Of a stretch of DNA of 64,000 nucleotides, positions 4,670-8,733 are shown piece by piece. Below the pieces are notes generated by a model. It was not told where the DNA came from. It saw only the letters and a program-made list of their open reading frames with translations, and did no database searches. This DNA is from Succinivibrio dextrinosolvens DSM 3072 (GTDB lineage Bacteria > Pseudomonadota > Gammaproteobacteria > Enterobacterales > Succinivibrionaceae), in assembly GCF_900167015.1 (NCBI RefSeq), contig NZ_FUXX01000002.1, forward strand, positions 62,001 to 126,000. The letters run 5' to 3'. The translations under genes were made by a program, and so were the position numbers. The number at the start of each line of letters is the position of its first letter. The first letter of the stretch is position 1.

Positions 4670-5830
4670 TTATTTTTTTAGTAAATGAATATCCTCAAGA
4701 TTTTTTAATGCACTGTTTAGAACTTCATCTGACTTGGCAAAGTGCAGTCGTATATAACGGTTCTCTTTCTCCTTGAAGAATGAAGAACCAGGCACTGCAC
4801 CGACTTTAATCTTATTGGCTAGATCAAGACAGAACTGATAGTCATCGTCGTAGCCAAAGGAGCTTATATCAACAAGCACAAAGTAGGTTCCCTGAGGTTC
4901 ATAGAAATCAAGGTTAAGCTTTTTAAGTCCACCGCAGAAAAGATTCTTTCTGTGGGTAAAGAGCGCTCTTACATCCTGGTAGTATGAATCAGGCAGAGTC
5001 AGGCCTTTGATGATAGCTTTCTGCAGAGGTGCTGCTGCACCGACTGTAAGAAAATCATGAACCTTTCTGATTCTGTCCATAACCTCAGGAGGAGCCGCTA
5101 CATAACCAAGTCTCCAGCCTGTAATAGAGTAGGTCTTAGAAAGAGAGTTACACATAATGGTTCTCTCTCTCATACCATCAAGTGATGCAAAGTAGGTGTG
5201 GGTGTAAGGCTCGAAAATGATATGCTCATATACCTCGTCGGTAATCACAAAGGCATTGTACTTCTCTACAAGCTTTGCAATGGTTAAAAGCTCATCACGG
5301 GTAAATACCTTACCGCTTGGATTTGATGGATTACACAGGATCAGTGCTTTTGCTCCCTGTGAAAATGCCTTCTCAAGCTCTTTCTCATCAAATGAGAAGT
5401 CAGGAGTATGCAGCGGTACATATATAGGCTCTGCTCCACAGAGAATTGCGTCGGCACCGTAATTCTCATAAAAAGGTGAGAAGATTGCTATCTTATCGCC
5501 TGGATTTAAGGTTGCCATAACTGCACTCATCATGGCTTCAGTACCGCCGCAGGTTATACAGAGCTCAGTGTCTGGATTATATCTGAGACCAGAGAAGTGC
5601 TCGATTTTAGCAGAAAGTGCCTCTCTGGTGTCCTGAGCTCCAAAGGTAATTGAATACTGATGAGGTCCGCTAAGTGCAATCTCTGATAGACTCTGTGTCA
5701 TTTCAAATGGAGGCGGATTATCAGGGAATCCCTGAGAGAGGTTGATAGCTCCGCAGCCATTGCAGATTCTTGTCATACGGCGTATGACCGAATCAGTAAA
5801 ATATTTTGTTCTTTCACTTAGAGTAATCAT
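4670..5830 (-). CDS. Class I/II PLP-dependent aminotransferase in the met uptake operon
   Basis: A 386-residue fold-type I aminotransferase. The PLP lysine lies in NSLSKTYSITGWRLGY (about residues 229-244), the phosphate-contact region in CGGTEAMMSAVMAT (about 93-106), the substrate-binding segment in CNPSNPSGKVFTRDEL, and the PLP-ring Asp in VITDEVYEHI. The N-terminal NLSQGFPDNPPP resembles methionine/aspartate aminotransferases of the YbdL/AspC-like groups. It is the last gene of metQ-metN-metI, 20 bases downstream of metI, so transamination of methionine or its oxoacid (4-methylthio-2-oxobutanoate), or use of methionine as amino donor, is a reasonable inference. Aspartate or aromatic substrates cannot be excluded. 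Confidence 0.85.
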   Translation of the reverse strand: MITLSERTKYFTDSVIRRMTRICNGCGAINLSQGFPDNPPPFEMTQSLSEIALSGPHQYSITFGAQDTREALSAKIEHFSGLRYNPDTELCITCGGTEAMMSAVMATLNPGDKIAIFSPFYENYGADAILCGAEPIYVPLHTPDFSFDEKELEKAFSQGAKALILCNPSNPSGKVFTRDELLTIAKLVEKYNAFVITDEVYEHIIFEPYTHTYFASLDGMRERTIMCNSLSKTYSITGWRLGYVAAPPEVMDRIRKVHDFLTVGAAAPLQKAIIKGLTLPDSYYQDVRALFTHRKNLFCGGLKKLNLDFYEPQGTYFVLVDISSFGYDDDYQFCLDLANKIKVGAVPGSSFFKEKENRYIRLHFAKSDEVLNSALKNLEDIHLLKK

Positions 5831-5850: not shown

Positions 5851-6528
5851 TTAGTGGGTCAGCAGTTTTGCAATTCTGTCACCGGTTAGCTGTGCTAACT
5901 GTACGATAACAACCAGTACCACAATAGTAAAGATCATTACACCGGTTTCATATCGATAGTAACCATACTGGATCGCAAGGTTACCGATACCGCCGCCACC
6001 GACCATACCAGCCATTGCTGAGCAGCCGATAAGATTGATGAAGGTTATGGTGATACCTCTGACAATTGCTGGTGCCGCCTCAACCAGAAGAACATTTCTG
6101 ATAATAAGAGAATGAGAGGCTCCTGTTGCAATTGCAGCTTCAATTACACCTGCATCAACTTCCTTTAAGGCACTCTCAACCAGTCTTGCAAAGAAGACAA
6201 TGGCTGCGATTGATAAAGGTACAGATGCTGCAATCGGACCGATTTTGGTTCCCACCAGGATAAAGGTTAGAGGCAGTGAGAATACCACCAGAATAATAAA
6301 TGGTATGGAGCGGATAATGTTGATAAACGCTGATACTGTTTTATTTAGACTGATGGTCTTTTCAAAAAATGTCTTACCTGAGGTCAGGTATAGAACAAAG
6401 CCAAGTGCAAGACCGAAAATAAGACTTAATGAAAATGATATTCCGATCATCAGAGCGGTTTCATAGATGGACTTTAAAAACTCGTTCTGAAGAATATTTA
6501 TAGTTGATTCCAGTAACTGACTGCTCAT
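5851..6528 (-). CDS. metI: Methionine ABC transporter permease MetI
   Basis: A 225-residue inner-membrane permease of the methionine importer with about five hydrophobic segments. The EAA loop that contacts the ATPase is seen as EAAIATGASHSLIIRNVLL (about residues 129-147). Its start is three bases after the metN stop, so it is translated with metN. MetI works as a dimer with two MetN subunits and receives substrate from MetQ. Length is close to E. coli MetI (217). Confidence 0.93.
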   Translation of the reverse strand: MSSQLLESTINILQNEFLKSIYETALMIGISFSLSLIFGLALGFVLYLTSGKTFFEKTISLNKTVSAFINIIRSIPFIILVVFSLPLTFILVGTKIGPIAASVPLSIAAIVFFARLVESALKEVDAGVIEAAIATGASHSLIIRNVLLVEAAPAIVRGITITFINLIGCSAMAGMVGGGGIGNLAIQYGYYRYETGVMIFTIVVLVVIVQLAQLTGDRIAKLLTH

Positions 6529-6531
6529 TTT

Positions 6532-7542
6532 TTACTCCGCATCCAATCTGCTTATGAAGGTCTTTCTGTGCAGATAGCTGATTACAGACTCTTTTTCTTT
6601 TTCATCTCTGGTACGCAGAGAAATCAGAAGTCTTCCTATAGGTTTATCCTGCACGTACTCAATGTTGCCTTCGATAATTGATAAATCTGTGTTTAAGAAC
6701 TTTCTTGATACATCTGAAATAACAGGATCAAAAGCTCCCTCTTCCTTGTAGGTGATCATGTAAAGATCTTTTTCCTGCTCTAACACCTTCTTAGGTACAG
6801 CCTTTTTGTAATCACTGCTGATAAGAGCCTTGGCTGCCTCTGACTGTGGAGTCGCAAACAGGGTGTAGGAAGGTGCAACCTCAACAAGACGCCCCTTTTC
6901 CATTACTGCTATTCTGTCAAACAGAGATTTTGCAACCTCCATCTGATGTGTGATGAACAGAATGGTGATTGGATAGTGATTCTTAATGTTACGCAGTGTC
7001 TGAATCACTTCCTTGGTGTTGTCAGGGTCGAGTGCAGAGGTTGCCTCATCACATAGAAGGATCTGTGGATTGTTTGCTAGAGCGCGGGCAATAGCCACAC
7101 GCTGCTTCTGACCGCCTGATAATGATGGCGGAAATAATTCCGCCTTATCTGCAAGTCCTACCAGCTCTAAAAGCTCAGGAACTCTTTTCTGGATTTCCTT
7201 AACTGGAGTGCTGGAAGCTTTAAGGGCAAAAGCAATATTGTCATAGACTGTAGCATTAGATATCAGGTTGAAATGCTGAAAGATCATGCCGATGTTTAGT
7301 CGTAGGTTTCTAAGCTTCTGTCCGCTGTAGTTTACGATGTTTTCCCCATTGATATACACATTACCTGAGGTTGGCTTCTGCAGCAGGTTAACTGTACGAA
7401 CCAGTGTTGATTTACCTGCTCCAGATGCTCCTACTATTCCGAAGAACTCGCCTTTGTTAATGGTTAGATTAACGCGGTCAACTGCTGTATATTCAGCGTC
7501 GGTATGCGAGAACTTAACACTTAGATTTTCGAATCTGATCAT
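6532..7542 (-). CDS. metN: Methionine ABC transporter ATPase MetN
   Basis: A 336-residue ATPase with Walker A GASGAGKST (about residues 37-45), signature LSGGQKQRVAIARAL, Walker B ILLCDEATSALD and the switch histidine in LFITHQME. The C-terminal ~90 residues, after about 245, form the NIL/ACT-like domain that in E. coli MetN binds cytoplasmic methionine and inhibits transport (trans-inhibition). The regulatory domain therefore appears retained. It lies between metQ (40-base gap) and metI. Confidence 0.94.
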   Translation of the reverse strand: MIRFENLSVKFSHTDAEYTAVDRVNLTINKGEFFGIVGASGAGKSTLVRTVNLLQKPTSGNVYINGENIVNYSGQKLRNLRLNIGMIFQHFNLISNATVYDNIAFALKASSTPVKEIQKRVPELLELVGLADKAELFPPSLSGGQKQRVAIARALANNPQILLCDEATSALDPDNTKEVIQTLRNIKNHYPITILFITHQMEVAKSLFDRIAVMEKGRLVEVAPSYTLFATPQSEAAKALISSDYKKAVPKKVLEQEKDLYMITYKEEGAFDPVISDVSRKFLNTDLSIIEGNIEYVQDKPIGRLLISLRTRDEKEKESVISYLHRKTFISRLDAE

Positions 7543-7582: not shown

Positions 7583-8434
7583 TTAGTTTGCAGGCCACCA
7601 CTCTGGTTTAGCAAAATCCCTGTAAGTAGGATCTGCATTTACAGATGAGGTAAATTCACGGCTTGCAACTGCATCCTTTAAGAAGGCTCCAACGGTGTTT
7701 ACACGATCACTCTGTACTGTAACCACAAGCTTGATTGGTTCAGATACCTTCTCCTTTGCCAGTGCCTTGTCAAATGGCAGTTTTGCCTCATATGCATAGT
7801 TGCCAGGAACTAAAGCAAGGTCTGTTGAATCAAGTGAACGTGGCAGCTGAGCAGCTTCCATTGGCACGAAGTTTAAGTGCTTAGGGTTCTTGTCGATATC
7901 AGCAATAGATGCCTTGAGATCATCCTTGTCGGCCTTAAGGGTGATAATGCCTGCATCACGGGCGAATCTTAAAGCACGTGACAGGTTTACCGCATCGTTA
8001 GGCAGAGCAACCAAAGCTCCATCTCTAAGCTCATCAAGAGATTTAACCTTCTCTGAGAAAGCAAATAAGCCTAGGGTTGGTACGTTGATAACCTCATCAA
8101 GCTTTAAGCCCTGATTCTCAACAATTGCCTTAAGGTAGATTGAGTGCTGGAACAGATTGGCATCGATTTCACCTGCATCCAGTGCTGAATCAGGCTGTAC
8201 CCAGTCAGAAAACTCAACAAAATCCAGTTTGTGACCGCGGCTTTCAACAACCTTTGTCAGATGGTTTTTCAGCAGATCCTTGTAAGGACCTGGTACTACA
8301 CCGACTTTGATGTGCTCTGGGACAGTATCAGCCTTTGCTGATTTGCTGCCCTCATCATTGCAGGCGGTTACGGTTAAAGCTAAAAATGCTGATAAAACAG
8401 TAAGTAGGATATTTTTCTTTGATAATTTTGACAT
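7583..8434 (-). CDS. metQ: Methionine-binding lipoprotein MetQ
   Basis: A 283-residue substrate-binding lipoprotein of the NlpA family. The N-terminus has lysines, a hydrophobic stretch and a lipobox-like TVTAC with the acylated cysteine at about residue 25. IKVGVVPGPY and the LDAGEIDANLFQH segment are typical of MetQ. It binds methionine outside the inner membrane and delivers it to MetI. Its Shine-Dalgarno sequence, CCGGAG (8447-8442), 7 bases from the ATG, is almost fully complementary to a segment of the upstream leader ORF, so its translation is probably regulated (see the regulatory entry). Confidence 0.94.
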   Translation of the reverse strand: MSKLSKKNILLTVLSAFLALTVTACNDEGSKSAKADTVPEHIKVGVVPGPYKDLLKNHLTKVVESRGHKLDFVEFSDWVQPDSALDAGEIDANLFQHSIYLKAIVENQGLKLDEVINVPTLGLFAFSEKVKSLDELRDGALVALPNDAVNLSRALRFARDAGIITLKADKDDLKASIADIDKNPKHLNFVPMEAAQLPRSLDSTDLALVPGNYAYEAKLPFDKALAKEKVSEPIKLVVTVQSDRVNTVGAFLKDAVASREFTSSVNADPTYRDFAKPEWWPAN

Positions 8435-8440
8435 AATAAA

Positions 8441-8553
8441 ACTCCGGACAGCTTTTGCGCTGTTAAAAATAATTACTAAAAAATAATGGAAAATTTCTGT
8501 GAGATTAGTGTGCTACATGCACATACACATACAGTCAGAGGTGCTGTCGGAGT
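8441..8553 (-). promoter_or_regulatory. Predicted SD-sequestering switch between Cys/Met leader ORF and metQ
   Basis: In the minus-strand transcript, ACTCCGACAGC (8553-8543, leader codons 25-28) can pair with GCTGTCCGGAGT (8452-8441) over 11 bp with one bulged C. The second segment contains the whole metQ Shine-Dalgarno sequence. A competing local hairpin is ACAGC (8463-8459), loop GCAAAA, GCTGT (8452-8448); it uses the same GCTGT but leaves CCGGAG free. The two structures are mutually exclusive. A ribosome held at the Cys/Met codons (8533-8516) would cover or come very near the anti-SD segment. The sequences are seen directly; the switching model is inference. Confidence 0.65.
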
Positions 8554-8626
8554 ATTTGTTTAAGGTAATTCTTCTGTCAGATAAGAAGAGAGCTTCTTTC
8601 TGAAGATCTTGCTGATTCTTTTTCAT
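8513..8626 (-). CDS. 37-residue leader peptide ending CMCMCM
   Basis: A short ORF upstream of metQ begins ATG at 8626 after a good Shine-Dalgarno sequence (AAAAGGAATATT ATG) and ends with codons TGT ATG TGT ATG TGC ATG TAG. The peptide starts MKKNQQDLQK and ends DCMCMCM. Six alternating Cys and Met codons directly before the stop, in front of a methionine-importer operon, are the hallmark of a ribosome-stalling leader that senses charged tRNA-Cys and tRNA-Met. A small hairpin (TGTGC, loop ATGTA, GCACA) overlaps the last codons and the stop. The peptide is too short and unusual to be an enzyme. An alternative is a nascent metal- or thiol-sensing peptide, since Cys/Met alternation can bind soft metals. 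Confidence 0.72.
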   Translation of the reverse strand: MKKNQQDLQKEALFLSDRRITLNKYSDSTSDCMCMCM

Positions 8627-8733
8627 AATATTCCTTTTATTTTCTATTTTTAGGATTGTTTTTTTAGTATCTTTCGATGTTGTTATTCTTATCTTTAAAA
8701 TCTCTTTTGGCTAATACTAATTTCTAATTATCG

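Follow-up and report, generated by a model that had tools for sequence, protein, structure and literature searches.

The segment upstream of metQ in Succinivibrio dextrinosolvens, a bacterium of the gut and rumen, was read as an attenuator leader that would respond to methionine (and cysteine) and control the metQNI-aminotransferase operon, with ribosome stalling on the leader releasing the metQ Shine-Dalgarno (SD) sequence. We give this reading as a whole a probability of roughly 0.55. Taken separately, a Met/Cys leader-peptide attenuator at this locus is quite likely, while the odds on an output at the level of the SD at this operon are about even. Positions refer to the window, i.e. the whole 64,000-nt stretch of DNA analysed. 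The leader and its signals are as follows:

8513..8626, minus strand: leader ORF of 37 codons, MKKNQQDLQKEALFLSDRRITLNKYSDSTSDCMCMCM followed by its stop codon (from the sequence and from orthologous leaders in relatives)
8632..8636, minus strand: SD of the leader ORF, AAGGA (from the sequence; kept in five of five clade members)
8516..8533, minus strand: sensor codons 32–37, Cys-Met-Cys-Met-Cys-Met, with the stop codon next (from the sequence and from relatives)
8510..8522, minus strand: small hairpin GUGC-AUGUA-GCAC across the last leader codons and the stop (invariant in five relatives)

Orthologues of the leader occupy the same position in four other Succinivibrio genomes (L008/L058, L009, L010/L059 and L011/L060) and end in 6–8 Cys/Met codons, and the gaps that an alignment of the five Succinivibrio sequences places within the ORF (18, 6 and 3 nt) are all multiples of three. 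As four Succinivibrio relatives retain the peptide, the SD and gaps in steps of three, comparison indicates that the 37-codon leader is very likely a real coding sequence; its pattern of substitutions by codon position involves too few differences to inform by itself. No family was matched by the eight leader peptides compared with NCBIfam or by the six compared with Pfam. The small hairpin at the leader end has counterparts, with other sequence, at several other metQ leaders. The coordinates that the first-pass annotation had assigned to the leader, the two pairing arms, the SD and the Cys codons were all correct, base for base.

The metQ start lies 78 nt beyond the leader stop codon on the minus strand, and the operon reads:

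7583..8434, minus strand: metQ, substrate-binding lipoprotein of the NlpA/MetQ family (Pfam PF03180, E = 1e-59; best NCBIfam match MetQ, below the curated cut-off)
6532..7542, minus strand: metN, ABC ATPase with a C-terminal NIL domain (PF00005, PF09383; best NCBIfam match TIGR02314 MetN, below cut-off)
5851..6528, minus strand: metI, permease (PF00528; best NCBIfam match MetI, below cut-off)
4670..5830, minus strand: class I/II aminotransferase (its best NCBIfam matches include methionine aminotransferase models, below cut-off)

The window MetQ is 93% identical to that of S. dextrinosolvens ACV-10, and its nearest named relatives are from Succinivibrio; the only MetQ relatives found on viral contigs were three distant ones. 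A short conserved ORF with CMCMCM before metQNI would, to judge by sequence, place the locus among the general amino-acid leader-peptide attenuators.

Met/Cys-rich leaders were sought ahead of 116 MetQ-family genes, almost all of them from Succinivibrionaceae, as short ORFs no more than 400 nt upstream with at least five Cys/Met per 10 residues. They were found at 19 of these genes, against 0 in reversed and 3 in reverse-complement sequences and 1 of 56 before metA/metE-type genes (Fisher values of 0.0005–0.004, in which independence is overstated, the sequences being related within subgroups). At this threshold the 19 leaders were spread over 11 genomes and two genera; several family members had no recognisable leader, and before the metA/metE-type genes of Succinivibrionaceae none was found above background. 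The leaders comprise several unrelated sequences, CMCMCM being that of the window group. Those of a second operon, SMCTCHSCTLMCM and SMCCSCHMCCSPMSM, precede an NlpA lipoprotein and MsrAB, the window genome included (L003/L317), and further unrelated sequences are FFMMMGMCMMMY, MCMFSMCCVMCMMCSVM, ACCRMCMCMMRR, LMFRMCRIMCLRMMR, SMCRMMETVMCMCMR and the MRMP-type leaders. The runs in Succinatimonas hippei (SSMAMSMRMSH) and in an Anaerobiospirillum MAG (L075) contain Met without Cys, which makes Met the common denominator.

Some further features of these leaders were recorded. The second leader of the window genome (C36, L003/L317) has a bifunctional MsrA/MsrB gene downstream and no terminator was seen there, which is also the case at G014:C1, G004:C28 and G010:C79. 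The metQ leaders L018–L023, L027 and L028 end in (C)MRMP.., have a small hairpin AUGCC..GGCAU (with variants) over the last codons and the stop, and are apparently conserved in both peptide and RNA. In L068, L070 and L071, also of the MRMP type, a conserved hairpin-like sequence (GGUAGAAAACUGG and variants, with changes that by eye are paired) precedes the leader ATG by ∼70 nt. A leader at L145 (G006:C4, ∼1368–1515 of its reverse complement) resembles the metQ leader that this genome also has (L023), and precedes an apparent outer-membrane porin gene. The motif ATGCGAATGNC..GNCA was considered as a family-wide element and discarded; it occurs at several metQ leaders, but most of its other matches look unrelated.

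At the MetQ-family loci G036:C7, G011:C168, G008:C72, G013:C55 and G006:C1, the leader is followed by a strong hairpin with a U-run and then by the gene, a layout also present at the metNI locus G016:C95 (L160/L316). The terminators of these six sister loci lie 16–34 nt past the leader, with energies of −11 to −18 kcal/mol, and the part of the leader that comes directly after the Met/Cys codons is complementary to the 5′ side of the terminator, a rival antiterminator pairing. This rival pairing gave P values against shuffles of 0.000, 0.006 and 0.016 in three of the loci and of 0.10, 0.19 and 0.41 in the other three; it is clear at G036:C7, G008:C72 and G006:C1, fair at G011:C168 and weak at G013:C55 and G016:C95. 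Judged by predicted structure, the six loci have a textbook attenuator layout, with the rival pairing in most. Their operon mates include MetNI, MsrA/MsrB and an FAD oxidoreductase, the last of which, of the DAO type, accompanies the Met/Cys-leader metQ operons at G016:C95 (L316), G011:C168 (L313) and G008:C72 (L314). Among clostridial MetQ relatives, L088 and L089 have the upstream sequence TATAGGATATTAGACAAA in common and carry a leader of different sequence (CMRMLR...CM) ∼126–290 nt upstream of the MetQ match, together with an intrinsic terminator; in L086 the leader is similar and the hairpin weaker.

MetJ was found in none of 56 Succinivibrionaceae genomes (completeness 90% or more in 41; the E. 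coli control was detected) and in 75 of 93 sampled genomes of the same order outside the family, while the SAM-I riboswitch occurred in 1 of the 56. An Rfam scan returned only two tRNAs in the window, with no riboswitch or T-box, and neither of these elements at 18 related loci. With MetJ absent and SAM-I so rare, a leader-peptide system would fill the vacancy, and it may have replaced MetJ. That the whole family replaced MetJ by Met-codon leaders on its methionine and methionine-sulfoxide uptake operons, with terminator and SD outputs evolving in parallel, is a tentative extension, for which the odds are slightly short of even. Because the leaders are conserved and recurrent, sister attenuators exist and MetJ is absent, leader-peptide attenuation by Met (with Cys) is well supported, and the leader probably acts as a starvation sensor for methionine uptake. 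The first-pass annotation had proposed translational attenuation for this uptake; leaders, sister loci and the lack of MetJ uphold the attenuator in that proposal, while its SD-release output drew partial support from the elements listed here:

8543..8553, minus strand: anti-SD segment ACTCCGACAGC, leader codons 25–28 (from sequence, duplex energy and alignment)
8441..8452, minus strand: SD-side arm GCTGTCCGGAGT, with the metQ SD GGAG at 8445–8442 (from sequence, duplex energy and alignment)
8448..8463, minus strand: local hairpin ACAGC-GCAAAA-GCUGU directly upstream of the metQ SD, with a second ACAGC at 8463–8459 (from the sequence and one compensatory pair among relatives)

Codons 25–28 are complementary to the metQ SD, as had been claimed, ACTCCGACAGC pairing with GCTGTCCGGAGT on the minus strand of the window over 11 bp with one bulged C, and 9 nt do separate the end of the anti-SD from the first Cys codon (8533). 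The window duplex has an energy of −18.2 kcal/mol (P = 0.018–0.030 against synonymous recodings of the leader; P = 0.005–0.022 against dinucleotide shuffles), a complementarity that is unusual, though not extreme for a single locus. The duplex of S. dextrinosolvens among the relatives reached −16.2 kcal/mol (P = 0.004–0.053 against synonymous shuffles); in L058, L009 and L059 the complementarity was not significant, significance being attained in two of the five species overall. The two arms had been expected to be conserved and to covary. In the five-sequence alignment 89% of the cells of the 11-bp helix are paired, against 27–38% in slid controls, a measure that favours the helix since it was read from one of the aligned sequences; covariation, however, was no greater than in shuffles (329/500), and in the closest relative four inner pairs are broken. 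The local hairpin shows one compensatory pair (UA/CG) in two sequences, a score reached by 25 of 500 shuffles. Minimum-energy folds of the ribosome-free RNA place the SD within the anti-SD stem in four of the five sequences. In those of the window and L058, the local ACAGC/GCUGU hairpin forms together with the six outer pairs (ACUCCG/CGGAGU) and competes with the inner five alone. The role of competitor proposed for this hairpin holds for the inner five pairs; the two RNA states that had been envisaged are not wholly exclusive, because the outer six pairs can form alongside it.

Stalling was modelled with a ribosome masked at the first Cys codon, by folding either the whole RNA or only the RNA 3′ of the ribosome. 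The accessibility of the window SD rose from 0.02 to 0.13 by the whole-RNA method and from 0.00 to 0.08 when the RNA 3′ of the ribosome was folded. By the latter procedure it increased from 0.05 to 0.49 in L058 (where the whole-RNA method gave no rise) and from 0.26 to 0.51 in S. dextrinosolvens among the relatives, and was not raised in L009 or L059. The modelled release of the metQ SD by a stalled ribosome was weak in the window and, with only the RNA 3′ of the ribosome folded, missing in L009 and L059. A ribosome farther along the run (codons 34–37) would leave the anti-SD uncovered. Leaders of other groups gave no clear SD effect, and the SD switch was rejected as a feature common to all leaders.

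In the mechanism envisaged for the window operon, ribosomes would translate the 37-codon leader and, under a shortage of charged tRNA-Met or tRNA-Cys, come to a halt on the codons that open the CMCMCM run, methionine being inferred as the ligand ahead of cysteine. A ribosome with Cys32 or Met33 in its A site would cover most of the anti-SD, leaving the metQ SD less sequestered and raising uptake. When Met and Cys are plentiful, the ribosome would reach the stop codon, and the exposed anti-SD would pair with the metQ SD and lower metQ translation. Such an SD mechanism at metQ is plausible.

The main rival to this SD switch is Rho-dependent attenuation, in which the ribosome stalled at the Met/Cys codons would block the loading of Rho onto the poorly structured RNA, richer in C than in G, that follows the stop codon, and its normal release would lead to termination before metQ. 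The window group has no intrinsic terminator and most second-operon and MRMP-type leaders no convincing one, C exceeds G after the window leader stop (0.20 versus 0.11) as in many similar leaders, and Rho was likewise proposed for the Cys-run leaders at cys operons of actinobacteria, where terminators are also lacking (PMC1262725). However, the absolute C content is low, Rho sites are not reliably recognisable from sequence, and the leader/SD complementarity would be left unexplained. Rho control appears rather unlikely. Transcription attenuation by an intrinsic terminator within the window operon might be expected from the layout of the six sister loci and from the UUUUAUUAU that comes after the anti-SD stem, but the best local candidate amounts to −8.1 kcal/mol, with many A-U/G-U pairs and an interrupted U-run adjoining the metQ start, and relatives L009 and L060 have no candidate at all. 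With no convincing candidate found, an intrinsic terminator was rejected for the window group; the pair of terminator and rival antiterminator that marks a classical attenuator is not seen between the window leader and metQ. Transcription attenuation of this type is very improbable.

The peptide itself might be the sensor, through nascent-chain arrest or a redox or metal response of the Cys/Met run, in place of codon starvation. The MsrA/MsrB genes linked at sister loci make oxidation a possible signal, and a C-terminal motif is common to the MRMP-type leaders; yet apart from their Met/Cys richness the peptides vary widely, down to the Cys-less run of S. hippei, and the terminator/antiterminator layouts match codon-based stalling, leaving a peptide sensor little credence. 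Equally doubtful is that the leader is real and its RNA complementarity due to chance, the leader working through translational coupling alone or not at all. This would agree with a pairing significant in only two of five species and with covariation not above shuffles, but the leader class at Met operons far exceeds the controls, and the distance from the leader stop to metQ is long for coupling.

A leader-peptide attenuator that releases the metQ SD, the reading preferred here, has parts in common with several known systems. As in the classical his, trp, leu, thr, phe and ilv attenuators, there is a short leader rich in codons of the operon's own amino acid, and the sister loci add terminator and antiterminator; the differences are the Met (with Cys) codons, the uptake operon and a window copy without recognisable terminator. 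At the actinobacterial cys operons, which belong to sulfur metabolism, a short leader peptide likewise ends in a run of Cys codons, with no clear terminator (PMC1262725; Canestrari et al. 2020, cited in PMC9094748), whereas here the runs are alternating Cys-Met or pure Met, the family is gammaproteobacterial, the genes serve methionine uptake and sulfoxide, and no peptide kinship is apparent. For actinobacterial methionine operons no conserved RNA structures were reported (PMC1262725), and where a passage of PMC2965389 touches on the methionine transporter, a T-box alone is mentioned. With erm translational attenuators the window would share a sequestered SD that a leader-stalled ribosome exposes; unlike there, the signal would be amino-acid supply instead of an antibiotic, and the anti-SD is itself part of the leader, close ahead of the sensor codons. 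Methionine-responsive control is also the task of MetJ, SAM riboswitches and Met T-boxes, but MetJ is absent from Succinivibrionaceae, SAM-I nearly so, and the window has no such Rfam match.

To our knowledge, the amino acids with a described leader-peptide attenuator are Trp, His, Leu, Ile/Val, Thr, Phe and Cys; Met is not among them, perhaps because any leader has to begin with Met anyway. The open-access papers searched yielded no earlier case of a methionine-codon leader-peptide attenuator, which is weak evidence, most subscription journals lying outside that scope. Leader-peptide attenuation being known, the likely novelty is methionine as the sensed amino acid. If this is true, a Met-codon sensor can work, the sister loci would represent different outputs from one sensor type, and the finding suggests how methionine uptake could be controlled in a family that lacks MetJ and has hardly any SAM-I riboswitches.
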